Assembly: GCA_026707945.1 (NCBI GenBank)
Contig: JAPOVV010000110.1
Location: forward strand, 186,001-250,000
Direction: 5' to 3'
DNA length: 64,000 nt
From: Gammaproteobacteria bacterium
GTDB lineage: Bacteria > Pseudomonadota > Gammaproteobacteria > Pseudomonadales > Azotimanducaceae
Below the pieces are notes generated by a model. That model was not told the origin of the DNA. It did no database searches and worked only from the letters and a program-made list of their open reading frames with translations. Positions 17,566-29,963 of the stretch are shown here, one piece after another. Each line of letters opens with the position of its first letter. Position 1 is the first letter of the stretch. Both the position numbers and the translations under genes were made by a program.

Positions 17566-17974
17566 AATCCTTTGTGAGGCGGTCGGTTTCGTCGATATCT
17601 ACGATGTCGGCTTATTGATGCGCGTTGAAATTCACAATTCTGACCCCATATATTCGGTAAGTGCGGACAGCTTTCTAGGGGAAACAGTTTTTCCGATTAG
17701 GAGTGAACTTTCTTGACGCACGTTTGTCTCATGGGCACCCATACTTTGGATTTCGCAAAACGTGGTACAAACCTGCATGCTTATTCAGGTCGTTGACACT
17801 TCCCGTGTCATGCCGCTTTTGCGCGCAATCTAGGAGGGAAGAAGAGCAACAATCTGACAGCTGCATCGAAAGATCAAGCATTGTCGCGTCGACTCCCTCA
17901 GAGTCAACGCGCAACCATCTAGGCAATGTATTCACGAGTGTGACGGAAGACAGACTAAGAGAGAGGGAAGAACG
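17566..17974 (+). other. Long gene-free leader upstream of sigma gene A
   Basis: Together with the promoter area this forms a 634-nt stretch without a convincing gene (17341-17974). It holds several short hairpins: ATGGG/CCCAT near 17730, TGACAC/GTGTCA near 17803-17820, and GACTC/GAGTC near 17890-17905. There are AGGAG-like sites near 17700 and 17831. An open frame from a GTG at 17703 ends with a TGA overlapping the sigma ATG, but its translation has no protein-like conservation. The ribosome-binding GAGAGGG lies 6-12 nt before the ATG at 17975. A post-transcriptional control region is possible. Confidence 0.35.
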
Positions 17975-19717
17975 ATGAGCGTTTACTACAGTAAAGAACA
18001 AATAAACCAAGACGCGATCGCGGGCATCGATTACAAAGATTTAGTTGATGAGTTACGACTCCGTCCAGAGTCAGAAGACCTGATTTCTATCCAGGACATC
18101 CTCGACCTGTTCAACGGTGAAATTGCTATTGACGATCCAAGGATTGATGAGCTGCTATCACGCCTCGCTACGGACGGCTTCGCCATCGCTGAACCGGACG
18201 ACGAAATTGAGGCGCACCTCCAGAAGGCGGAAGCCAGCATTAGGGACAACGTGCATATCTACATGCGCGAGTTGTCAAAGCTGGACCTCCTTTCGCGCGC
18301 GGAAGAACTTGAGCTCGCACGTGCGCGCAATCAAGGCATGAGCGAAGTACTTTCGGCGTTGGCAACGATTCAACCTGTTGTTGAACGTGCGTACGCTTTA
18401 TTTGAATCGCACTTCAAGTCTGGTCGCCTCGACCGATTTGTCGCTGGCTATCTCGACGTAGTCGATGAATTGCCAAAGGTCAACGTAGTCGCAAGTAATG
18501 CACCGCGTGACACAAAAGGCAAGCCACCCAATCTCGATCAAGCGAAAGCTCGATTTAAGCGATTTACGATAGCGATGGAGACGTTTTTCGCCCAACCCAA
18601 GCAACGTCGTACGATGAACTCGCGCAAAGAACTTGAACACGCTTTTGGTTACTTCAAATTCACGATGCCGCACTATCTTGATTTTGTGCAATTGTTCAAA
18701 GCGAAGTTGGCTCCGCTAGAGTCAGCGCGCTCCAGATTGCGAAAGATCGTAGGAATGGCCGGCGTCTCGAGCAACGTGTACGCGAGCAACTTCGAGCCGA
18801 ATATCACCGGCCGTCGATGGCTGACATTGGTTGCGAAGCAACCAAAGCGAATACGAGACGCCTTAGCGCTTCACGCGAACAAGATCTCTGAATTGCGTTC
18901 GCAGGTTCGCGCCGTCGAAAAAGAACTCGGCCATAGTTCCGAGGAATTGCTACAGATCAGAAGTCGAGTTAAGAAAGGCGAGGCGCGGGTGAATGCCGCA
19001 ACCGAAGGGCTTGCGGTTGGAAATCTTCGCCTTGTTATGTCGATCGCGCAGAAGTTCAAGAATCGTGGTGTCGAGGAAGAAGATCTAATCCAAGAAGGGA
19101 ACGTAGGTCTTATTCGCGCTATCGAAAAATTCGACTACACGAGAGGATTCAAGTTCTCGACGTACGCGACGTGGTGGATTCGTCAGGCGGTTACACGTGC
19201 TCTAGGTGAATACGGACGTACCGTACGGTTGCCTGCCAATGTCAATCAAGACATGAAGAAGGTCTATCGTGCACAACGACAACTCACCCAAGAGTTTTTG
19301 CGAGAACCCTCCGCGGAGGAAATCGGCAAACGCATCGGTAAGACGGCTAAGCAAGTACGAGACGTGTTTAACTACACGCGCGAACTTCGTGGTCTAGACA
19401 CACCAGTCGGTGACGAGGACGACGGCACAACGTTTGGCAATATGATCGCGGATGAAACTGTCCGTTCCCCCGAGGACGAAGCAGTAGACGCTAGTCAGCC
19501 GTCGGTGATTGCTAAAGCCCTTGCTGTTCTCGACGCTCGTGAACAAATGGTGATGGCGATGAACTTCGGTATCAATCGGAATGACACGATGACGTTCACT
19601 CAGATTGCGAATGAGCTTCACGTGTCACGAGAGCGCGTACGTCAGATTCACATGTCGGCGTTGAAAAAACTTCGACTGAGTCCAATGTCGAAGTCACTTG
19701 AACCATATCTGCGATAA
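17975..19717 (+). CDS. RpoD-like sigma-70 factor, short paralogue A
   Basis: A 580-aa sigma-70 protein. It has an acidic N-terminal part resembling region 1.1, region 1.2 ([20 protein letters not shown], about residues 88-107) and a non-conserved region of about 200 residues. Region 2 starts near 347 ([13 protein letters not shown]) with the -10 melting/recognition helix [19 protein letters not shown]. Region 3 follows, and region 4.2 lies near 538-560 ([19 protein letters not shown]). The -35 contact residues RER..RQ and the -10 residues Q/T/R match E. coli RpoD, so it probably reads near-consensus promoters. The segment after region 2.4 differs from RpoD ([14 protein letters not shown] rather than [14 protein letters not shown]). 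It is most similar to paralogue C (25892-27619). A rho-independent terminator follows. Confidence 0.9.
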
Positions 19718-19737
19718 ACGCCAATTCTTCCTCTGCT

Positions 19738-19774
19738 AAGCCGGGGCTCGTGTTCACACGACCCCGGCTTTTTC
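19738..19774 (+). terminator. Rho-independent terminator of sigma gene A
   Basis: A GC-rich hairpin (AAGCCGGGG at 19738-19746, CCCCGGCTT at 19762-19770, with an inner CGTG/CACG) ends in a T-run, 21 nt after the sigma A stop. The mirror strand has an A/T-rich flank, so it may also serve the convergent monooxygenase gene. Confidence 0.85.
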
Positions 19775-19801
19775 TTGGCACCGACCAGTTCTCAAACTCA
19801 A

Positions 19802-21415
19802 CTACACGAATTCAAAACCCTCGTAGTCGCGCGATGCAATCTCGTTTATACGGGTTCGGTATTCAGGCGCACCGCCGAAATACACAAGATGGCGAACTCT
19901 GTCATGGCCATCGAGGTTTGAGTTGTATCCGTTAAACCAAGACTTAACTTCGTGAAACCAAAACGCTTCATACGACTCTTTCACATGTGCCGTCCACGCT
20001 TCTTCTGCATTCAGACTTGCTTCCACATGGTGGTAACCATGCACTCGCATGTATTTCAGCATCCGAATCGTCCAATCTACCGCATCTTCGATGCCTCGAG
20101 GGAAGTTCGTACCTACTGACGCACTTTGTGGTCCCGCCAGCGTAAAGAGATTCGGGAAACCTCGTGTCTGAAGTCCAAGATAGGTCTGAGGTCCATCAAT
20201 CCACTTTTCACGAAGGGTTCGAGATCCTTTGCCTTTTATGTCGATTCGATCGAATGAACCTGTGATCGCATCAAATCCAGTGGCATAGACGATCAGGTCA
20301 AATTCAAATTCGCGCTCACTCGTCTGTATACCAGTTTTCAATATCCGCTCAATTGGTGTCTCATTCAAATCTATTAGCTCGACGTTATCCCGATTAAAAG
20401 CTTCGTAGTAGTCCGTCTCTAGCGGTACCCGACGAGACCCAAACCCATGATCGATTGGAATCAACTTGAGTGCGACCTTTTGATCGTGCACGCGTTCACG
20501 AATTTTCGCAGCAATAAACTCAGAGTATTCCGCGTTCGCACTGGGATCAACTAGTACCTTGACAAAGTTCCCTAACCACTTACCAAATCCTGGCGACTGA
20601 TATAGGTTCTCCCAGAACTCTTCTTTCTCTTGAACGGACAAGCTGTCAAAGTCGCGACGATCCGGACCATGAAGAAATCCGCTTGGTGTTCTTGCACAGC
20701 GAGCAAAAATCTCTTCGTATTGCTCTTTGATTTGCGCCATTTCGTCCACATCAAGTGTCCCGTTATGAAGTGGTGCACACCAGTTCGGGCGGCGCTGAAA
20801 CACGGTCAAATGTCTAGCGATCTTCGCGACTTCGGGAATCAGCTGAACCGCTGTCGCACCAGTACCGATGACCGCTACAGACTTTCCATCGAGATCAACA
20901 CCTTCTCTCGGCCAGTGGTAGGTGTGGAATGACTCACCCCCGAATGTATCTAAGCCGTCTATCCGAGGGAGCGTTGGCGCTGACAACATCCCGATCGCTG
21001 TGATCAAAAAGCGTGTCCGTAGTTCGTCACCATCTTCTAACAAGATGTGCCAGCACTTTGTTGCTTCGTCAAAGCGAGCAGCTTTAACGCATCGACCGAA
21101 CTGCATACCTTGTCGTAGATCGAACCGATCGACCACGTGGTTTAAGTAGCGCAGTGTCTCTGGTTGGCTCGCGAATCGTTCCGTCCAGTTCCATTCAGCT
21201 AAGAGATCTTTCGAGAACGAATAGCCGTAGGAGTAGCTCTCCGAGTCGAAGCGAGCTCCAGGATATCGATTCCAATACCAGGTGCCACCTGGTCCGTCAC
21301 CTTTTTCAACTAACGTAACCCGCAACCCAATTTCACGTGCCCGGTACAGCATGTAGATTCCGCAAACACCCGCACCGATGATCACGACATCGTGTTCAAA
21401 GCTGTCTTTATTCAC
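19802..21415 (-). CDS. Baeyer-Villiger-type flavin monooxygenase
   Basis: A 537-aa class B flavoprotein monooxygenase. The N-terminal FAD Rossmann motif is IIGAGVCGIYM (G14, G16, G19). The Baeyer-Villiger fingerprint FxGxxxHTxxWP reads FGGESFHTYHWP near residues 157-168, and the NADPH Rossmann motif is VAVIGTGATAVQL near 185. These enzymes insert oxygen next to ketones, turning cyclic or linear ketones into lactones or esters with NADPH and O2. It sits alone on the minus strand between two sigma genes, an odd place for a catabolic gene. With the PhyH, LLM and thiolase/DUF35 genes it suggests ketone, steroid or terpenoid breakdown (inference). Confidence 0.9.
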   Translation of the reverse strand: MNKDSFEHDVVIIGAGVCGIYMLYRAREIGLRVTLVEKGDGPGGTWYWNRYPGARFDSESYSYGYSFSKDLLAEWNWTERFASQPETLRYLNHVVDRFDLRQGMQFGRCVKAARFDEATKCWHILLEDGDELRTRFLITAIGMLSAPTLPRIDGLDTFGGESFHTYHWPREGVDLDGKSVAVIGTGATAVQLIPEVAKIARHLTVFQRRPNWCAPLHNGTLDVDEMAQIKEQYEEIFARCARTPSGFLHGPDRRDFDSLSVQEKEEFWENLYQSPGFGKWLGNFVKVLVDPSANAEYSEFIAAKIRERVHDQKVALKLIPIDHGFGSRRVPLETDYYEAFNRDNVELIDLNETPIERILKTGIQTSEREFEFDLIVYATGFDAITGSFDRIDIKGKGSRTLREKWIDGPQTYLGLQTRGFPNLFTLAGPQSASVGTNFPRGIEDAVDWTIRMLKYMRVHGYHHVEASLNAEEAWTAHVKESYEAFWFHEVKSWFNGYNSNLDGHDRVRHLVYFGGAPEYRTRINEIASRDYEGFEFV

Positions 21416-21613
21416 GATACTTCTCTTGAGCTAGCCTCACTCAAAATTCGGACTCTACAGTTAGCGATTCTTCCACGAGTGAATTTTCCTCAACCCTCGT
21501 GTATAGCATTGATTACAGAAATCGCAACAATCTAATTGTGCGTGGAATGTTTTGTGAATACACTTTTAACATTCGCTTCTGCGCAAAATGTAGCGATCTA
21601 CTTGTTAACGTTT

Positions 21614-21650
21614 AGGAGGGTGGTCAAGCAACCATCCCGTCACACGTCGA
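21614..21650 (+). promoter_or_regulatory. Distant ribosome-binding site with intervening hairpin before sigma gene B
   Basis: A strong AGGAGGG (21614-21620) lies 30 nt before the only plausible start, ATG at 21651, much too far for normal spacing. Bases 21618-21624 can pair with 21631-21638 (GGGTGGT with ACCATCCC, one bulge). The hairpin could bring the site nearer the ATG or hide part of it, which would allow translational control. No ATG, GTG or TTG lies in frame between the site and the ATG. Confidence 0.35.
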
Positions 21651-23585
21651 ATGCCAAGTTCAGAAACTGACTCACAACTGACAACTTCTTTCGATAACAA
21701 GGACAACGCACCTACCGAATTAATCACTTTCCTTGAGCGAGCTCGCGAACAGGGCTACGTAACTTACGAGGAAATTACCGACTTTATTGATGTCGGCGAC
21801 GACGACAGCGACATCGGTCTCATTTTTGAAGAGTTCGTCGCAGATATCAAAGACGCCGGTATACGCGTATTCGAAACACCTCCTACCGAAGAAGATCTTC
21901 TTCAAGGTAATGATCCATCTACGAGCGATGACGATGAGCTTGAAGAAGAACAGCTCAGTGCCGCGCTCATCGCGATCGAGAAAAACGTTACAGGGCGAAC
22001 AACAGATCCCCTACGCATGTACATGCGCGAAATGGGTGCTGTTGGTCTGCTTACACGCGATGAAGAAATTGAGATCGCGCGACGACTAGAGTCAGGGATT
22101 AGCGACGAACTTGAAGCGCTAACCTATTTTCCCGGCGTCGTTGAATATGTCCTGAACGTGTATGAGGATGTCACGAAGCGAAAAAAACTCGGGGAGTTGC
22201 TCGTCGGATATCTTGATCCAATGGAGCATGTTCCTCAGGCTAAGCAAATAGACGCAAATACGCCTAAGGATCCAAGTCAAACGAATAAACGTAAAGGTCC
22301 GGATGTAGCTGAGGCAAAGAAGCGCTTCAGCCGACTCCGGAGATCATATCGCAAGGCACAGAAAGTCATCGCATCGCAGAAGTCTTGGCGCAGTGATGAG
22401 TCCGTAAAGGCACTAGCCGCGGTCGCACGAATCTTCAAGTTCTTTAAGTTCACGCAACCCCATCATGATCACCTGTGTGAGATGGCAGAGTTGTCATGGC
22501 AACGCATACGTCAACAAGAACGTGAGCTACGCAAACTCGTCAAGCGCTGTCGAATGCCGTTGGACGTATTCCAAAAGGAATTTGACGGAAAAGAATCGTC
22601 ATCCGCGTGGGTTAAGCGTCACATAAAAGCCGACCACTCATACAGTAAACGACTTGCGAAATACGAAGTAGAACTGATGCGCGCACATCGATGTATTCGA
22701 GAAGAAGAGATTGATCAGAGATATTCCGTCAACGCAATGAAGCGAAAGACGAACATACCGCGGGACCGACGCCTAATCACGGCGCACAATCAAACCACGT
22801 ATTCGTCTATCTGTGAGGTTCATCAGCGCGTTCGAGCCGGTCAAAAAATACGCAGCATCGCAAAAAACAACATGGTCGAGGCAAATCTCCGCCTAGTTAT
22901 GTCAATCGCTAAGAAATACACGAACCGTGGTCTGCACTTCCTCGATCTAATTGAAGAAGGTAACCTAGGCTTGATGAAAGCGGTTGACAAGTTTGAATAT
23001 CGCCGCGGCTTCAAGTTTTCCACCTATGCAACCTGGTGGATTCGACAGGCTATCACTCGTTCGATCGCAGACCATGCACGCACGATCCGCGTTCCTGTGC
23101 ACATGATCGAGACCATCAACAAGCTCAATCGCGTAACGCGACAGATGACTCAGGAACTGGGGCGTGAACCAAACTCGGAGGAGCTCGCGGAACGAATGGA
23201 AATCAACGATGATCGTGTGCGGCGAGTACAAGAAATCGGACGTGAACCAGTATCGATGGAGCGACCATTAGGTGAAGATGGCGACGCTACGATCGGCGAT
23301 TTCATTGAGGACAACAACACCAAGACGCCTATTGACGTGACCGCTTACGAAAACCTGCGAGACGTAATTGAAGTGATCCTTAATGAGCTAGATCCGCGCG
23401 AACGTCAAGTTCTTTGCATGCGATTTGGCATCGGCATGAATCAAGACCATACGCTTGAGGAAGTAGGTAAACAGTTCGACGTCACTCGGGAACGTATTCG
23501 TCAAATTGAAGCCACAGCGATGCGACGAATTCAAAATTCGTTGGCCGCACGCGTACTCGCAGAGGATTTCATACACCTGACTTAA
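21651..23585 (+). CDS. RpoD-like sigma-70 factor, long paralogue B
   Basis: A 644-aa group-1-type sigma factor with all RpoD parts. Region 1.1 includes [16 protein letters not shown] (about residues 30-45) and an acidic linker; region 1.2 reads [15 protein letters not shown]. There is a long non-conserved region with [12 protein letters not shown] and [12 protein letters not shown], and region 2 starts near residue 406 ([18 protein letters not shown]) with [19 protein letters not shown]. The region 3.2 finger is [11 protein letters not shown], and region 4.2 near 600 is [17 protein letters not shown]. Every DNA-contacting residue I can align equals E. coli RpoD. It is close to the rpoD at 28005 and lies 48 nt upstream of rpsU, so it may be co-transcribed with rpsU-dnaG. 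The C-terminal tail ([13 protein letters not shown]) is less RpoD-like. Confidence 0.92.
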
Positions 23586-23633
23586 GTTCGATTACTGCAT
23601 AAAATTACGCGCCCTAAAAATCTGAGTCAATAC

Positions 23634-23849
23634 ATGCCCTCAATTAAGGTTCGAGACAGCGAATCATTCGACTTGGCGTTGCGAAGATTTAAGCGGGCGT
23701 GCGAAAAAGCAGGGATTTTGTCTGAAGCACGTCGTCGCGAGTACTACGAGAAACCAACAACCGTTCGTAAGCGCAAGGAAGCGGCGGCAAAGAAACGTCT
23801 ACAGAAGAAAATTAGTCGCGAAGCACGTCGATTCGAGAGACTCCACTAG
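23634..23849 (+). CDS. rpsU: 30S ribosomal protein S21
   Basis: A 71-aa very basic protein matching S21 over its full length ([21 protein letters not shown] at the N-terminus, [10 protein letters not shown] in the middle, KKxxRxARRFERL at the end). S21 sits on the small-subunit platform and helps initiation. It is the first gene of the classical macromolecular-synthesis operon rpsU-dnaG-rpoD, here preceded by a sigma gene at only 48 nt. Confidence 0.97.
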
Positions 23850-23955
23850 TTACGAAATCCACTATTTCCAGCCGTATTAGTAAAAAAGATTGACTTTTCG
23901 TATCGCTCACTTTTAGCTCGATCAACCTACTGTCCTGCCTTATAACTACACGGCA

Positions 23956-25716
23956 ATGGCGGATTTTCCTTCAAGTCGATCTGGCCAATTTGGCCGCGAG
24001 TTCCTCAATGATCTAACGAATCGCATTGATGGACCAGCATTTTTAAGTAGGTTTCTCAAAGTTGAGAAGAGTGGTGATCGCTACCGCGCCTTATGTCCGT
24101 TCCACAAGGACAGCAAACCTTCGATGTATATTCGCGACGATGGCAGTTTTTATTGTTTCGGCTGCCAGAAGAAAGGTTCCGTTTTTAACTTTCTTATGGA
24201 ACAAAATGGCGTTAGTTTCCCTGACGCCGTCAAGGACGTCGCACAGTTTCTCGGCGTGCCGTTACCTGAACGCCCCGGCTCCGTTGGACTAACGAAGGAG
24301 CAACGCGCACTCCTCGATGTGCTCCAAAAGAGCGCTTTGTTTTTCAGTCGCCAACTCGAACACGCCGGTAGCAATACCATAGTTAAGAAATACCTCGTTT
24401 CACGCGGCTTTGACCGAACAGCAGTCGAAAAATACCAAATAGGTTTCGCACCCAATGCATGGACCAGTCTAAAAGAACACTTAGCCGATACCGAGGAACG
24501 GACGCTGATCGATGCGGACGTATTGGTTGACAATCAGGATCGAAATTCTGTTTACGACCGCTACCGCAACCGATTGATGTTCCCAATACGCAACCGTCAA
24601 GGCGACGTTGTTGGATTCGGCGGTCGGACACTCGACGACAGCGTCGAGCCGAAGTACTTGAACACCAAACAGACCAAGGTATTCTCAAAAAGTCGCGAGC
24701 TCTACGGTCTATTTGAAGTACTGAATATCGACCGACGTCCAAAACGCCTATTACTCGTCGAAGGTTACACGGATGTCGTAGCTCTATCTCAACATGGAAT
24801 TCCCTACGCCGTTGCTGCGCTGGGCACAGCGTCAAATGACTCGCACTTCCGCACCATGTTCTGGTTCACTAATGAAGTCATTTGTTGCTTCGATGGCGAC
24901 GATGCGGGCCGAACGGCCGCCAAAAGAGCGCTCGAATCGGCTTTAGCGGCGTTGACTGATGAAAAAACCGTAAAGTTCATGTTCTTACCTGAGGGAGAAG
25001 ACCCTGATAGTTTTGTGCGCTCTAACGGTAAGACCGCGTTCGAGGACTTTGTCAACAACGCACAACATGTCGCCGACTATTTCGTCGATTCGGTCCTCGA
25101 AACTAAGGATCGTACGTTCGCGAGTATTGAGCAAAAGGCACGATTCGTGGATCGCGCAAAATCGTTGATTCAAGGAATAAAGCACGATTCCTTTCGCGTA
25201 ATACTCGCACAGGAAGTTGCCCAATGCTTCCCAGACGATGTCAACATGCAGCAGCTCCTTGCGCCTGTATTTTCGGTACGCGGACCTGAGACACCATCAT
25301 CCATTGACACATATGACGACGATTGGTCTGAAAGAGAACCCGACTCACAGCAATCTGGCCGTTTTTACGATGAGATAACCACCCGTCTACGAGTGAGTCA
25401 ATTACTGTGTGCACATCGGATTTGGAGAAGTCTGACGACCCATCGTGAACTTCTGCATCGGCTTGTTGAGGTAGCGAACGATCATCCTATGACGCGGCTC
25501 TGGTCGGCGATCGATCGATACGGATTTTCGGAAGTTAGTGGGCTTATCGCCTCGTTCCAAGGCGACGAGTGGTTTGTTAGGTATCTCAACGAAGTGTATG
25601 ACCGTTCCAATACACAAGCGATGGTTGAACCTGAAGAAACACTTGAACAGTTCGTCGACGGTGTTGAGGCATTCCTCACGTCGATAGAGAAAGACATAGA
25701 ACGAAAAACAATTTAG
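23956..25716 (+). CDS. dnaG: DNA primase
   Basis: A 586-aa bacterial primase that makes the RNA primers for replication. The N-terminal zinc-binding domain has CPFHKDSKPS and YCFGCQKKG (Cys/His ligands near residues 49-78). The RNA-polymerase domain includes DRYRNRLMFPIRNRQGDVVGFGGR, and the Toprim metal site follows (LLLVEGYTDVV near 263, then FDGDDAGRTA near 313). The C-terminal 140 residues form the divergent DnaB-interacting part. Length agrees with E. coli DnaG (581 aa). Order rpsU-dnaG is conserved; the next gene is an extra sigma factor rather than rpoD itself. Confidence 0.97.
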   Translation: MADFPSSRSGQFGREFLNDLTNRIDGPAFLSRFLKVEKSGDRYRALCPFHKDSKPSMYIRDDGSFYCFGCQKKGSVFNFLMEQNGVSFPDAVKDVAQFLGVPLPERPGSVGLTKEQRALLDVLQKSALFFSRQLEHAGSNTIVKKYLVSRGFDRTAVEKYQIGFAPNAWTSLKEHLADTEERTLIDADVLVDNQDRNSVYDRYRNRLMFPIRNRQGDVVGFGGRTLDDSVEPKYLNTKQTKVFSKSRELYGLFEVLNIDRRPKRLLLVEGYTDVVALSQHGIPYAVAALGTASNDSHFRTMFWFTNEVICCFDGDDAGRTAAKRALESALAALTDEKTVKFMFLPEGEDPDSFVRSNGKTAFEDFVNNAQHVADYFVDSVLETKDRTFASIEQKARFVDRAKSLIQGIKHDSFRVILAQEVAQCFPDDVNMQQLLAPVFSVRGPETPSSIDTYDDDWSEREPDSQQSGRFYDEITTRLRVSQLLCAHRIWRSLTTHRELLHRLVEVANDHPMTRLWSAIDRYGFSEVSGLIASFQGDEWFVRYLNEVYDRSNTQAMVEPEETLEQFVDGVEAFLTSIEKDIERKTI

Positions 25717-25891
25717 TCTATCGTGTTTAGTTGACACGATGAATCTACCAGAATCAAAACGGACTGAGGGTATCTATGGCCGATGTATCGACCTAGCAAA
25801 TTCAAGTGCTCCAATGTTCGAGTTTAGCTGAATCCGTTAGATAATTCGAGAAATTGAGACGTGTTTGCGTGTCTCACCCTAAGCGTGTCGG

Positions 25892-27619
25892 ATGCGTGAG
25901 TGGAACTGTTCTTACATGAAGACCTTTGAACAGGCAGTAGATCATCTAAGCCAATATGTGGCTGAGGACGGACGTCTCTCGATGATGGACATTTGTGCGT
26001 TCGCCCGTTTACACACAGATCTACACGATGAACAGTACACTGATCTAGCACATCGTCTGATTGAGATCGGTATCGATGTATACGACTTCGAGAGTGACCA
26101 AGAAGCACAGATCGTCGAAGAGATCGAAGAGCGTGAACGAGGATCGATTCGTGAGAACACGCAAATCTACATGAGGGACGTAGGCGAATTCGACCTACTC
26201 TCTCGCGACGATGAACTAACGTATGCGCGAGCAATGAATCAGGCGATGAGCGAGGCTCTTGCAACGATCGCGCCAGTAAAGTCAGTTAATCTTCAATGTC
26301 GCAAATTGATTACATCTCACGTAGAAAAGGGTCAGTTAAACCGCCTTTTTGCGGGATTCTTGGACCACGTCGAAGATCTACCCGAAGTTGAGCGACCTAC
26401 AGCCAATGGAAACAACACCGAACGAGAAGATTCGTTGGATCCTGAACTCATTAGGCGTCGAATTCAGCTGTTTGAATCCGTGTCGGACGAATACTTCGGA
26501 CTACCAGTAAATAAACGTACAAATGAGCAGCAAATAGCAGTAGAGGAATCCTTTCGGTTCTTCAAATTCGCAACGAATCACTATACGTCTCTTCTTGATA
26601 CCTTCAAAGCGGTCGTGCGTTCGATAGAAAGTGCAATTGCTCGCGTTAGATCTATCTGTCTTACGGCAGGCGTCTCAGACCCTATGTTTCTTGAACGTAT
26701 TTTTCCTCACTTAACTACGCTTCGACTTTCTGAAGTTATCGCCGATTTTCCAGAAGAAATACAAACTTATCTAAAAGCTCACATGCACGTTTTCGATCGA
26801 GTGGATCGGAGTTTGAAAACTCTGGAAAAGCAATGTGACTTGTCGTACATCGAGCTACTTGAACGCGATCAACTTCTCAACAGTGCAATTCGAAGATTCC
26901 GCGAAGCCAAAAATGGCTTAGTTTCCGGCAATCTACGGTTGGTCATGCGCGTTGCCCAAACATATAGCAATCATGGTGCCCTCTTGCTTGACCTGATTCA
27001 GGAAGGCAACCTTGGGCTAATTCGAGCAGCAGAAAAATATGACTACACTCGTGGATTTAAGTTCTCCACCTACGCAACCTGGTGGATTCGGCAGGCGATA
27101 ACGCAAGCGCTGAATGAATTTGGACGTACAGTAAAACTCCCCGCAAGTCTTACGCAAGCGATTCGCAGTGTCGGTCGCGCAAAAATGCGATTAACACAAG
27201 TACTCGGACGGGACCCAAAGCTGGGTGAGCTTGCTGAAGATACCGGACTAAGCGTTCAACAGGTTCGCGATGTCCTGCTCTATGAACACAACGCCATCTC
27301 AATCGACGAACCCAACAACGATGAGGACGATACGACGTTGGTAGACACCCTCATAAGCGAGAGCGTTCCATCACCCGAGCAGTTGGCACTCGAACAAGGA
27401 CTTCGAGATGCGGTCGAGTTGACACTAGCGGACCTTACGACTCGAGAAACACAAATCCTGTCACTGCGTTACGGAATCGGAAGAACGTCCGATATGTCGA
27501 CTGCGGAGATCGCACGGGAACTAGGTATCTCTAGCAATCGGGTGAGACAGATCACAGTTAAAGCGCTTCGTCGCCTTCGCCAACCACGCTATACGCCTTT
27601 ACTCGAACCTTACCTTTAG
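25892..27619 (+). CDS. RpoD-like sigma-70 factor, short paralogue C, with altered -35 helix
   Basis: A 575-aa sigma-70 protein related to paralogue A (shared IYMR.....DLLSR..EL..ARA.NQ.MSE in region 1.2 and a C-terminal LEPYL). Region 2 starts near residue 346 (GNLRLVMRVAQTY), with [19 protein letters not shown]; the Arg of RpoD ITRS is Gln here. Region 4.2 near 535-557 reads LGISSNRVRQITVKAL. The residues aligned to E. coli R584 and E585, which contact the -35 element, are Ser548 and Asn549, so -35 recognition is probably changed. The region 3.2 finger is also divergent (EPNNDEDDTTLVDTLI). The start may instead be the ATG at 25916 (eight residues shorter); neither has a good ribosome-binding site. 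It lies between dnaG and rpoD. Confidence 0.9.
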   Translation: MREWNCSYMKTFEQAVDHLSQYVAEDGRLSMMDICAFARLHTDLHDEQYTDLAHRLIEIGIDVYDFESDQEAQIVEEIEERERGSIRENTQIYMRDVGEFDLLSRDDELTYARAMNQAMSEALATIAPVKSVNLQCRKLITSHVEKGQLNRLFAGFLDHVEDLPEVERPTANGNNTEREDSLDPELIRRRIQLFESVSDEYFGLPVNKRTNEQQIAVEESFRFFKFATNHYTSLLDTFKAVVRSIESAIARVRSICLTAGVSDPMFLERIFPHLTTLRLSEVIADFPEEIQTYLKAHMHVFDRVDRSLKTLEKQCDLSYIELLERDQLLNSAIRRFREAKNGLVSGNLRLVMRVAQTYSNHGALLLDLIQEGNLGLIRAAEKYDYTRGFKFSTYATWWIRQAITQALNEFGRTVKLPASLTQAIRSVGRAKMRLTQVLGRDPKLGELAEDTGLSVQQVRDVLLYEHNAISIDEPNNDEDDTTLVDTLISESVPSPEQLALEQGLRDAVELTLADLTTRETQILSLRYGIGRTSDMSTAEIARELGISSNRVRQITVKALRRLRQPRYTPLLEPYL

Positions 27620-28004
27620 ACGAAAAACAGAGCTCATACGTTTCATATCCGATTTAGCACAATGTTTCCTCGTTGTCCACTAACACGCTAATGAAATAAT
27701 ATGAAGGTTAGTTTTTTTAGAATCTCATATTCAGCTCTACGTCTCTTCTTGAACAGAATTTCATATAAAAATAATCGAATAAGCGCGTCTTACCGTATCC
27801 TCCTATTCGCATTTTCGATATCGGTACAAACCGAGCTTTAACGCAACAACTTGCGAGTCTCACAGACTCGCGAACTCCGTTCGCTGCCCGTCGTCCGATC
27901 GAGTAAGCGCTGATTATGTTTCAAATTGGTGCACGAAATACCTATCACACATATTGACATTTTCATTCTTAAAATAGCGCCTCTTCTCCGAACCGTTTTT
28001 ACGC
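27620..28004 (+). other. AT-rich intergenic region upstream of rpoD with tandem hairpins
   Basis: A 385-nt gap between paralogue C and rpoD. It contains a perfect 8-bp hairpin (GCGAGTCT at 27853-27860, AGACTCGC at 27864-27871) immediately followed by a second one sharing its last bases (GCGAAC/GTTCGC, 27870-27884). A consensus-like TTGACA occurs at 27954-27959, but no matching -10 lies 16-18 nt further on. A T7 run occurs near 27710. I see no ribosome-binding site before the rpoD ATG. A 46-codon frame at 27701-27841 is not convincing. Confidence 0.4.
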
Positions 28005-29963
28005 ATGGCAAAGCAAGCCCGGGCTAGCTCACTCCAAGATTCCCAGCAAGCAACACTGGAAACTCGCACAAATACCGATTCTGTTACCGATTCAATTGAG
28101 TTCTTGGCAAAAGCGCGAGAGCAAGGCTATGTAACGTACGAGGAGATCACTGACTTTATAGATGTCGGTGACGACGATAGTGACATAAGCGTCGTATTCG
28201 AAGAATTCGTCGCCGACATAAAAGACGCAGGGATAAAAGTCTTCGAATCCCCGCCGACGGAAGAAGATTTACTCCAAGGGAACGAAGCGTCTGCTAGTGA
28301 CGACGAGTTATTAGAAGAGGAACAACTAAACGCCGCACTAACGGCGATTGAGAAAAATCAGACGGGTCGCACTACCGACCCTCTTCGCATGTACATGCGC
28401 GAGATGGGCAAAGTTGGCTTATTAACGCGTGAGAAAGAGATCGAAATAGCAAAGCGCTTAGAAGCTGGAATCAGTGCGGAACTTGAAGCAGTTGCAACGT
28501 TTCCCGGAGTCGTTGACTACATATTGGAAGTGTATGAAGACGTCACAAAACGCAAGAAATTAGGGGAATTACTAGTCGGGTATCTCAACCCGATGGAGGT
28601 CGTAAAACCGGCCCAACAAATCGATGCGAACACGCCAAAAGACGAAACAAAAGACAACAAACGCAAAGGACCCGATCCTGACATAGCTAAGAAACGGTTT
28701 GACGAGTTAAAGCGAGCCCATGCGAAATGTCACAAGATTCTTGCTAATCAACGAAATTGGCGGACGAAAGAGGCCGTTAAAGCGCTCGATGACATGGCGC
28801 AAATATTTAGGTACTTCAAGTTCACACTAGTCCATCATGATCACGTGTGTCAGATCGCCGAAACGTCTTGGCGACATTTAAGGGAGCAAGAGCGCGCACT
28901 TGAGAAAATTGTCCGTCGCTGTCGGATGTCGATTGAGGAATTCAAGGAAGAGTTTCGGGGCAAAGAATCTTCCGCTAATTGGTATAAGCGACATTCAACC
29001 GATAAACCGTATAGCCGCAAACTTACTGAATATGAAATAGAAATCCTTAGAGCACATAGATACATACGAGAAGAAGAACTTGATCAACGGCACTCTCGAG
29101 CCATCTTAAAACGAAAAACTGGCGTTGCACCTCCGGTACCAGCTCATACGCGAAATCCAGGCATAAAGTACTCGACCATCCGAGGAATCCACGACCGCGT
29201 TAGACACGGGGCCAAAGAAAAGAGCTTAGCTAAAAATGACATGGTCGAAGCCAATTTGCGGCTCGTGATGTCGATTGCTAAGAAATACACCAATCGTGGT
29301 CTTCATTTCCTCGATCTCATCGAAGAAGGCAATCTTGGATTGATGAAGGCTGTCGACAAATTCGAGTACCGTCGTGGATACAAGTTTTCAACCTATGCGA
29401 CATGGTGGATTCGACAAGCCATTACTCGGGCAATCGCCGACCACGCCCGAACGATTCGTGTTCCAGTGCACATGATTGAAACGATCAATAAGCTCAATCG
29501 CATCACGCGTCAAATGACGCAGGAACTAGGCCGGGAGCCCACACCAGAAGAGCTTTCCGAACGAATGGAAATCAATGAGGAGAAAGTTCGACGCGTCCAG
29601 GAAATTGGACGGGAACCTCTGTCCATGGAAAAACCAGTTGGCGAAGACGGCGACGCAACCGTCGGCGATTTCATCGAGGACTCAAGTGCTCAATCGCCTG
29701 TTGACAATACAGCTCATAAAAACCTTTCAGATGCGATTAAAGAGACGCTCGATGATATGGACCCGCGTGAAAGTCAGGTCCTCCGAATGCGGTTCGGCAT
29801 AGGGATGAATCAAGATCACACACTTGAAGAAGTCGGAAAGCAATTCGACGTAACTCGCGAGCGTATTCGCCAAATCGAAGCAAATGCTATGCGACGTATC
29901 AGCAATTCAGACCGAATTCGGTCACTTCTGAAAGACTTCGGTTTCGATCTACTCGCGAGTTAA
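28005..29963 (+). CDS. rpoD: RNA polymerase primary sigma factor (probable housekeeping RpoD)
   Basis: A 652-aa group 1 sigma-70 factor: region 1.1 ([19 protein letters not shown]), acidic linker, 1.2 ([20 protein letters not shown]), non-conserved region, region 2 from about 410 with [19 protein letters not shown], finger [11 protein letters not shown], and region 4.2 near 603 with [22 protein letters not shown]. All promoter-contacting residues match E. coli RpoD. The activator-facing patch after the helix is changed (E. coli K593, R599 and H600 align with Asn, Ser and Asn). Position after dnaG and before a terminator is the classical rpoD locus, and the C-terminal RSLLKDF is the more canonical of the two long paralogues. 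I therefore call this one rpoD, though paralogue B could share the role. Confidence 0.93.

Follow-up and report, generated by a model that had tools for sequence, protein, structure and literature searches.

Four RpoD-like sigma factor genes around rpsU-dnaG suggest a stress response rebuilt from housekeeping parts in a gammaproteobacterial genus

Introduction

Gammaproteobacteria normally carry, to our knowledge, one rpoD gene after dnaG. Why, then, would a member of this class keep four RpoD-like genes around the same rpsU-dnaG pair? The question is raised by a stretch of 64,000 nucleotides (nt) of contig JAPOVV010000110.1, here called the window, which sits in a 3.8-Mb assembly of 117 contigs from an uncultured bacterium of the Azotimanducaceae. 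Four intact sigma-70 genes, all on the + strand, flank rpsU and dnaG. Genes A (17975-19717, 580 amino acids [aa]) and B (21651-23585, 644 aa) precede rpsU (23634-23849, +, 71 aa, named by position and likeness) and dnaG (23956-25716, +, 586 aa; TIGR01391 388.3 bits, cut-off 283.6), and genes C (25892-27619, 575 aa) and D (28005-29963, 652 aa) follow them. The short-long/short-long arrangement had been reported in a preliminary description of this DNA, and the list of open reading frames (ORFs) bears out both the places and the lengths.

The same description proposed four primary-type factors that share housekeeping transcription. B and D are consistent with this. A and C, in contrast, fail the score cut-offs for RpoD, have changed promoter-reading residues and are preceded by sigma-E-type sites, which suggests stress-induced, specialised factors. 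Our reading, to which we assign a probability of about 0.6, is that B and D would be duplicated housekeeping factors, while A and C would be stress factors derived from RpoD that sigma-E would induce and that would take the place of RpoS.

Results

Occurrence of the arrangement in the genus

The genus consists of uncultured bacteria, and 18 of its genomes were examined; four relatives with A are metagenome assemblies, and isolate names hint that some may be of marine-sponge origin. A search of these genomes for the gene order found four RpoD-like genes in the same sigma order in 6 of the 18 (G000, G001, G006, G010, G016 and G017), which form a single clade in a tree of five linked genes (100/100). 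The agreement of six separate assemblies speaks against an assembly artefact, and this explanation was rejected. Ten further genomes have two RpoD-like genes after dnaG, in three types: dnaG-long-divergent (G002, G005, G008, G009, G011, G012 and G014), dnaG-short-long (G004, whose position within the genus is not fixed by the five linked genes) and a type with two moderately divergent copies (G007 and G015). The locus is cut by a contig end in G003 and G013, where one RpoD-like gene is visible.

Sigma-E-type sites upstream of the divergent copies

An alignment of upstream regions revealed a sigma-E-type promoter-like site, GAACTT-N16-TCTCA, before A in all six four-copy genomes. In the window it occupies 17705-17731 (+), 270 nt 5′ of the ATG; the site is exact at every A locus, and the letters of the spacer vary. 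The A sites defined the pattern and hence provide no independent test of it. Six independent sites were found in the dnaG-long-divergent genomes, where the divergent second sigma gene is preceded by TCTCA in five cases and TCTTA in one, with G011 the only one of the seven to lack the site. The pattern GAACTT-N16-TCT[CT]A matched 12 times in 326,414 bases of genus loci, each time before A or a divergent second sigma gene; 60 mononucleotide shuffles gave a mean of 0.3 matches and at most 2, and 281,412 bases of other loci gave none. A relaxed pattern, GAA[AC][CT]T-N16-TCT[CTA]A, gave 20 matches in the genus loci where 1.95 were expected, with 16 before A, C or a second sigma gene and 4 elsewhere. 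At the C loci, GAAATT-N16-TCTYA is found in four of six genomes (25850-25876, +, in the window, as GAAATT-N16-TCTCA, 42 nt 5′ of the ATG); G001 has TCAAA and G006 has no site. The site falls within the longest ORF at two second-sigma loci and one C locus, so that the true start would be later there.

These sites make A, and probably C, candidate targets of RpoE. A conserved GAACTT-N16/17-TCTNA, the mark of a putative RpoE regulon member, lies upstream of A at 6/6 loci. An rpoE gene is present in the genome, as its product has RpoE as best model and the next gene encodes an RseA N-terminal domain (RseA_N) above cut-off. The wider sigma-E pattern also matches the region upstream of E. coli rpoH, at what we take to be the known sigma-E promoter P3. 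A degP-like gene (TIGR02037, 416.4 bits, cut-off 416.2) is preceded by GAACTT-N16-TCTAA at four of the five readable loci of the four-copy clade and has GAACTA at the fifth, the sixth being cut by a contig end; in G003, G007 and G015 the degP-like gene has GAACTT-N16-TCTAT upstream.

Several observations count against control by RpoE. The short gene of G004 and the second copies of G007, G015 and G011 lack the exact site upstream, and so do B, D, the first copies and all of the G004 and G007/G015 genes. Near-matches that differ by one letter lie before B in two of six genomes (G001 and G006), and the exact site is lacking from all eight degP-like genes that belong neither to the four-copy clade nor to G003, G007 and G015. 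The wider pattern matches many places, many of them inside genes, and GAACTT-N16/17-TCTVA is not enriched genome-wide (14 matches vs. 17 in a reversed control), so the sigma-E argument rests on conservation and position. The RpoE protein itself scores 134.5 bits, under the RpoE cut-off of 236.15, and the region upstream of rpoE has only the variant GAAACT-N17-TCTAA (5/6). Other genes for extracytoplasmic function (ECF) factors have weak matches only, minus-strand loci having been turned for the RpoE set only.

Four of the 14 genome-wide matches had a near downstream start or an overlapping ORF. One of them precedes the degP-like gene and another a molybdopterin oxidoreductase-like gene; the remaining two fall within or next to long ORFs. 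A's own match is missing from this count, as A extends beyond the end of that locus. The molybdopterin oxidoreductase-like gene (L109, at C37:523259 of the window genome) has an exact GAACTT-N16-TCTAA 22 nt 5′ of its start and is a candidate sigma-E target.

The site before A could also have been kept for a different reason, as a target of another ECF factor, a regulator site or part of a leader RNA, in which case A would not be an RpoE target. Several further ECF-like factors are indeed encoded in the genome, conserved letters run on downstream of the A site in the alignment, and genome-wide enrichment is lacking. However, the same -35 letters and spacing recur upstream of both the degP-like gene and the second sigma genes of the other lineage, and the window genome has rpoE-rseA; we regard this alternative as rather unlikely.

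The region upstream of D (27620-28004) contains a block largely conserved in the six genomes: CAAAWTGGT, then an approximate TTCTTAMAAT, and then CGCCTCTTCTCC. The six-genome alignment shows no clear -35 element for this block, and a typed pattern for it had no match in the window. It is perhaps an activator site or a leader.

Domains and class of the four proteins

Pfam sigma-70 regions 1.2, 2, 3 and 4 were above cut-off in all four proteins. Region 1.1 and the non-conserved region, which had been ascribed to all four, are secure in B and D only. Pfam did not detect region 1.1 in A or C, where comparison of profiles (hhalign) gave matches that are in register but weak (P 0.0037 and probability 9% for A; P 0.0011 and 20% for C). 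The non-conserved region passes its cut-off in B and D. In A it falls short (24 vs. 29.7 bits) and in C it was undetected, although it spans 218 residues in each of A and C, compared with 251-252 in B and D and 246 in E. coli RpoD. Common wording of region 1.2 (56% shared) and a LEPYL tail in A and C were found as described. The statement that B and D share nearly all of regions 1.1, 2, 3 and 4 fits region 2 (95% identity) and is too strong for the others (69, 78 and 72%, respectively; 71% overall).

B and D exceed both RpoD cut-offs (NCBIfam NF004208, 555 bits; TIGR02393, 354 bits), with 647 and 360.1 bits for B and 645.2 and 367.7 bits for D. A (353.4 and 256.2 bits) and C (298.1 and 232.7 bits) remain below both, and RpoD is still the best-scoring curated model for each. 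None of the four reaches the cut-off for RpoS (TIGR02394, 378.7 bits; A 244.8, B 285.8, C 218.4, D 276) or RpoH (TIGR02392, 323.1 bits; A 128.2, B 129.5, C 111.4, D 128.6). In a sequence comparison with solved chains, A and C both come closest to RpoD, with RpoS further off. A predicted model of C (mean predicted local distance difference test score [pLDDT] 71.3, predicted template modelling score [pTM] 0.52) had solved sigma-70 chains as its top structural matches, and among the 50 matches listed all were RNA polymerase or sigma-70 entries by title, mostly from E. coli and one from Vibrio cholerae. A and C have the features of alternative primary, or group 2, sigma factors: they are RpoD paralogues with intact regions 2-4, they are under selection, and a primary sigma factor is also present.

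Promoter-contact residues and selection

Residues of the four copies were compared in E. coli numbering with those of 27 other RpoDs; the roles of these residues in contacts with the -10, extended -10 and -35 elements are those we presume from E. coli. W433, W434, Q437, Y430, N383, R385 and L386 are kept in all four copies, as is T440 save in one A. A carries H455N and E458Q in 6/6 genomes, and its core-binding region has F401E, joined in 5/6 by L402E. C has H455S and E458Q in 6/6 as well as R441Q, and its -35 pair R584/E585 is changed in 6/6 (R584S/A and E585N). H455, E458, R584, E585 and R588 are unchanged in all 27 other RpoDs. As far as these assignments hold, A and C have kept the residues that open the -10 element and changed the extended -10 contacts, with the -35 contact also changed in C. 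B and D keep positions 455, 458, 584, 585 and 588; both have Q406E, and they have lost K593 and R599, which presumably touch activators in E. coli RpoD. We infer that B and D have kept the housekeeping role of RpoD and read promoters with the same surfaces.

All four genes are under purifying selection. The ratio of nonsynonymous to synonymous substitution rates (dN/dS) between orthologues with finite dS was 0.031-0.116 for A, 0.017-0.020 for B, 0.067-0.078 for C and 0.011-0.024 for D, the most constrained copy, with dS high and near saturation for many pairs. Values so far below 1 led us to reject the possibility that A and C are pseudogenes.

These comparisons bear on a simpler explanation, dosage or redundancy, in which four interchangeable RpoD copies keep housekeeping transcription high and have no separate regulons. 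B and D, with identities of 95% (region 2.4) and 94% (region 4.2) and scores above the RpoD cut-offs, fit it, and for these two alone dosage is likely. Extended to all four genes it is unlikely, as A and C differ at extended -10 positions, and C at -35 positions, that are invariant in the 27 other RpoDs, and each has its own upstream site.

Descent of the four copies

A total of 89 sigma rows was compiled from loci chosen for retrieval rather than from every relative. In a quick tree with RpoS and RpoH as outgroups and a 217-aa fragment from G013 dropped, A and C grouped together (98) and were joined by the G004 short gene (99), with B and D in a separate group; A and C were in neither the RpoS clade (98) nor the RpoH clade (100), the placement that the preliminary description had named as fatal to its proposal. 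A more careful tree of 66 rows was built after removal of the G013 fragment, L065, two RpoH, 13 RpoS and six rows of three near-identical two-copy genomes. It recovered A (100/99), C (100/100), A+C (100/99) and A+C with the G004 short gene (100/100), as well as B (100/98), D (100/99), B+D (100/100) and B+D with the G004 long gene (100/94), with all genus copies together (100/99). The anticipated two clades, A+C and B+D, were thus obtained.

Both pair splits fall between the branchings of G004 and G006, as the copying of one module would give. G004 has one short-long pair after dnaG, its genes being sister to A+C and B+D. Together with the A+C and B+D pairs, this points to duplication of a two-gene module across rpsU-dnaG, as had been proposed. 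With the caveat of long branches, such a duplication is the best reading of tree and gene order.

Alternatively, separate tandem duplications could have produced the four genes with no module copy, A and C being grouped by convergence or by attraction of long branches. Another lineage does have a long-divergent order after dnaG, and the best tree joins its divergent copies to its own long copies (81/47; 77/87 in a 28-row set). Long branches, among them those of A, C and several other copies, meet in the trees; this also tells against the descent proposed here. On the other side stand the support for A+C and B+D, the position of both splits between G004 and G006, and the shorter non-conserved region common to A and C. 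Approximately unbiased (AU) tests were run on picks of 33 rows (RpoH excluded) and 28 rows (RpoS and RpoH excluded) from the 89. For the genus as a whole, the 28 rows did not reject one origin of A/C and the divergent copies of two-copy genomes (p = 0.151) or one clade of long copies (p = 0.051). In the 33 rows, which include RpoS, one clade of A-D with G004 was likewise not rejected (p = 0.284). We consider separate duplication quite improbable.

Assignment of A or C to RpoS or RpoH was rejected by model scores, tree and AU tests. It is highly improbable that, instead of being RpoD duplicates, they go back to an RpoS that diverged anew or to a group 2 factor gained by horizontal transfer: with RpoS in the tree A+C do fall to the RpoD base outside other RpoDs, a weak placement (62/88) that counts against our reading, and A+C+RpoS is rejected only marginally (p = 0.040), but A+RpoS and C+RpoS are each rejected (p = 0.007), one genus clade is not rejected (p = 0.479) and is recovered without RpoS, the best models and nearest solved chains are RpoD for both, and both genes lie beside dnaG and have an RpoD-like non-conserved region.

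Four loci from other genera of the family (L040, L061, L068 and L077) contain a second RpoD-like lineage that forms its own clade (100/100). We did not find dnaG in the L061, L068 and L077 loci (15-16 kb); the L040 locus is too short for such a comparison.

Absence of RpoS and other sigma factors

RpoS was above cut-off in none of the 18 genus genomes, three of which are less than 90% complete (78, 77 and 87%), vs. 25 of 40 other genomes in the same search. On these scores, RpoS, the sigma factor that usually serves under stress, seems to have been lost from the genus. Across the family, 20 of 162 genomes have RpoS above cut-off, or 30 if every best match with E <1e-92 is counted. Many of those that lack an RpoS-grade match show just one RpoD-like match. 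RpoS can thus be missing where no extra RpoD is present, and its loss is not enough to account for the copies in the genus, a point that weakens the link between the two. At the level of the class, at least 11 of 370 genomes sampled, including the window genome, have four or more RpoD/RpoS-grade matches (up to six candidates were scored per genome, so counts are lower bounds), and in all of the other 10 the best match is RpoS-grade (E <=5.2e-99). Four family genomes (G022, G025, G031 and G035) have two RpoS-grade matches each, the opposite of the genus studied.

The 12 sigma-70 region 2 matches of the window genome comprise A-D, one RpoH (362.1 bits, TIGR02392) and seven read as ECF factors, three of which were not scanned against a library; FliA was not seen among the 12. 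Among the ECF-like proteins are L009, L010, L011 and L012, three of which measure 447, 468 and 443 aa and, by eye, resemble one another in their C-terminal parts; the fourth lies in an ORF of at least 599 aa. Pfam scans of L009, L010 and L012 found sigma regions only and no domain in the long C-terminal parts. A second core polymerase was rejected, as there is one rpoB. Matches to 6S RNA, which binds the RpoD holoenzyme in E. coli, were found in 17 of the 18 genus genomes, 14 of them above cut-off.

Other features of the locus

The complete order in the window is an argC-like gene (-), A, a flavin monooxygenase-like gene (-), B, rpsU, dnaG, C, D and a glycyl-tRNA synthetase-like gene (-), the argC and glycyl-tRNA synthetase labels being assigned from sequence only. 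The flavin monooxygenase-like gene in the A-B gap (19802-21415, -, 537 aa) lies outside the conserved core. It is present in two of the six four-sigma loci, G000 and the more distant G006, and missing from G001, G010, G016 and G017, a patchiness that implies repeated loss or gain. Upstream of B, a possible sigma-70-type promoter, TTGTGC-N17-TACACT (21536-21564, +), was chosen by eye; its hexamers and spacing are the same in five of six genomes, G006 being the exception.

Discussion

The following course of events would account for the locus. A single ancestral rpoD after dnaG would have been duplicated within the genus. In the lineage of the window, a tandem short-long pair would have formed first, and a copy of this module would then have reached the other side of rpsU-dnaG to give A-B-rpsU-dnaG-C-D. 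B and D would have stayed housekeeping RpoD factors, while A and C became specialised through changed extended -10 contacts and, in C, a changed -35 pair. The envelope-stress factor sigma-E (RpoE), which RseA holds, would transcribe A and probably C. Once freed by stress, RpoE would make A and C, and these would steer the core polymerase to promoters of a second tier. As RpoS was not found in any genus genome examined, this relay probably does the job of RpoS. The gene order, the conserved promoter-like sites, the changed residues, the failure to find RpoS and, within the limits given above, the descent can be read from the genomes; from these we infer the induction of A and C, their second-tier regulon and the replacement of RpoS.

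A bolder version is tentative, and we would not bet on it at even odds: the genus may have swapped an RpoS-dependent stress response for an RpoE-driven relay of RpoD-derived factors, in which A (with an RpoD-like -35 contact) and C (with a rewritten -35 helix) would give four RpoD-type holoenzymes with at least three specificities, all derived from one gene at one locus.

Parts of this scheme have precedents. In the E. coli relay from sigma-E to rpoH, an ECF factor transcribes another sigma gene from a GAACTT-type promoter (rpoH P3); the locus described here likewise has a GAACTT-type site before a sigma gene, but the target is an RpoD paralogue. Actinobacteria and cyanobacteria have group 2 factors, with several primary-like factors per cell, some of them stress-induced. 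The copies studied here would differ in having an independent origin, within one gammaproteobacterial genus and in one locus. If A and C act as proposed, they would resemble RpoS of the Gamma- and Betaproteobacteria in being stress-induced, RpoD-related second factors, whereas their RpoS scores (244.8 and 218.4 bits) and their place outside the RpoS clade set them apart. As in RpoD of other Gammaproteobacteria, the genes occupy the site after dnaG and keep the domain order; B and D pass the equivalog cut-off, and their identity to E. coli RpoD reaches 88% in region 2 and lies at 56-61% for regions 3 and 4. Unlike that single gene, there are four copies, with A and C under the cut-offs and changed in their promoter contacts.

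The alternative primary sigma factors SigI and SigJ of Burkholderia are presented as the first outside actinomycetes by Menard et al. 2007 (PMC2194791). These, too, are additional group 1 factors in which every RpoD domain is present; in the available portion of that paper, rpoS is kept, and neither an ECF promoter link nor a copied rpsU-dnaG module is reported. A SELEX (systematic evolution of ligands by exponential enrichment) study of E. coli sigma factors (PMC5493296) gives, in the part available, an RpoS holoenzyme site at rpsU-dnaG-rpoD. Judged by titles and the starts of abstracts, the open-licence literature held no title on a four-sigma locus.

Extra primary-type sigma factors are already known, but the path by which a second sigma factor comes to read other promoters has usually been obscured by time. 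In this genus, possible steps of that process stand side by side: two or four copies, changes at the same contact residues, no RpoS found, and an ECF-type site at the divergent copy. Promoter-like sigma-E sites before the most divergent copies suggest a stress response rebuilt from housekeeping parts. The genus would offer a natural experiment on whether RpoD can serve to rebuild a general stress response, and a graded set of copies in which the evolution of sigma-DNA recognition may be followed.

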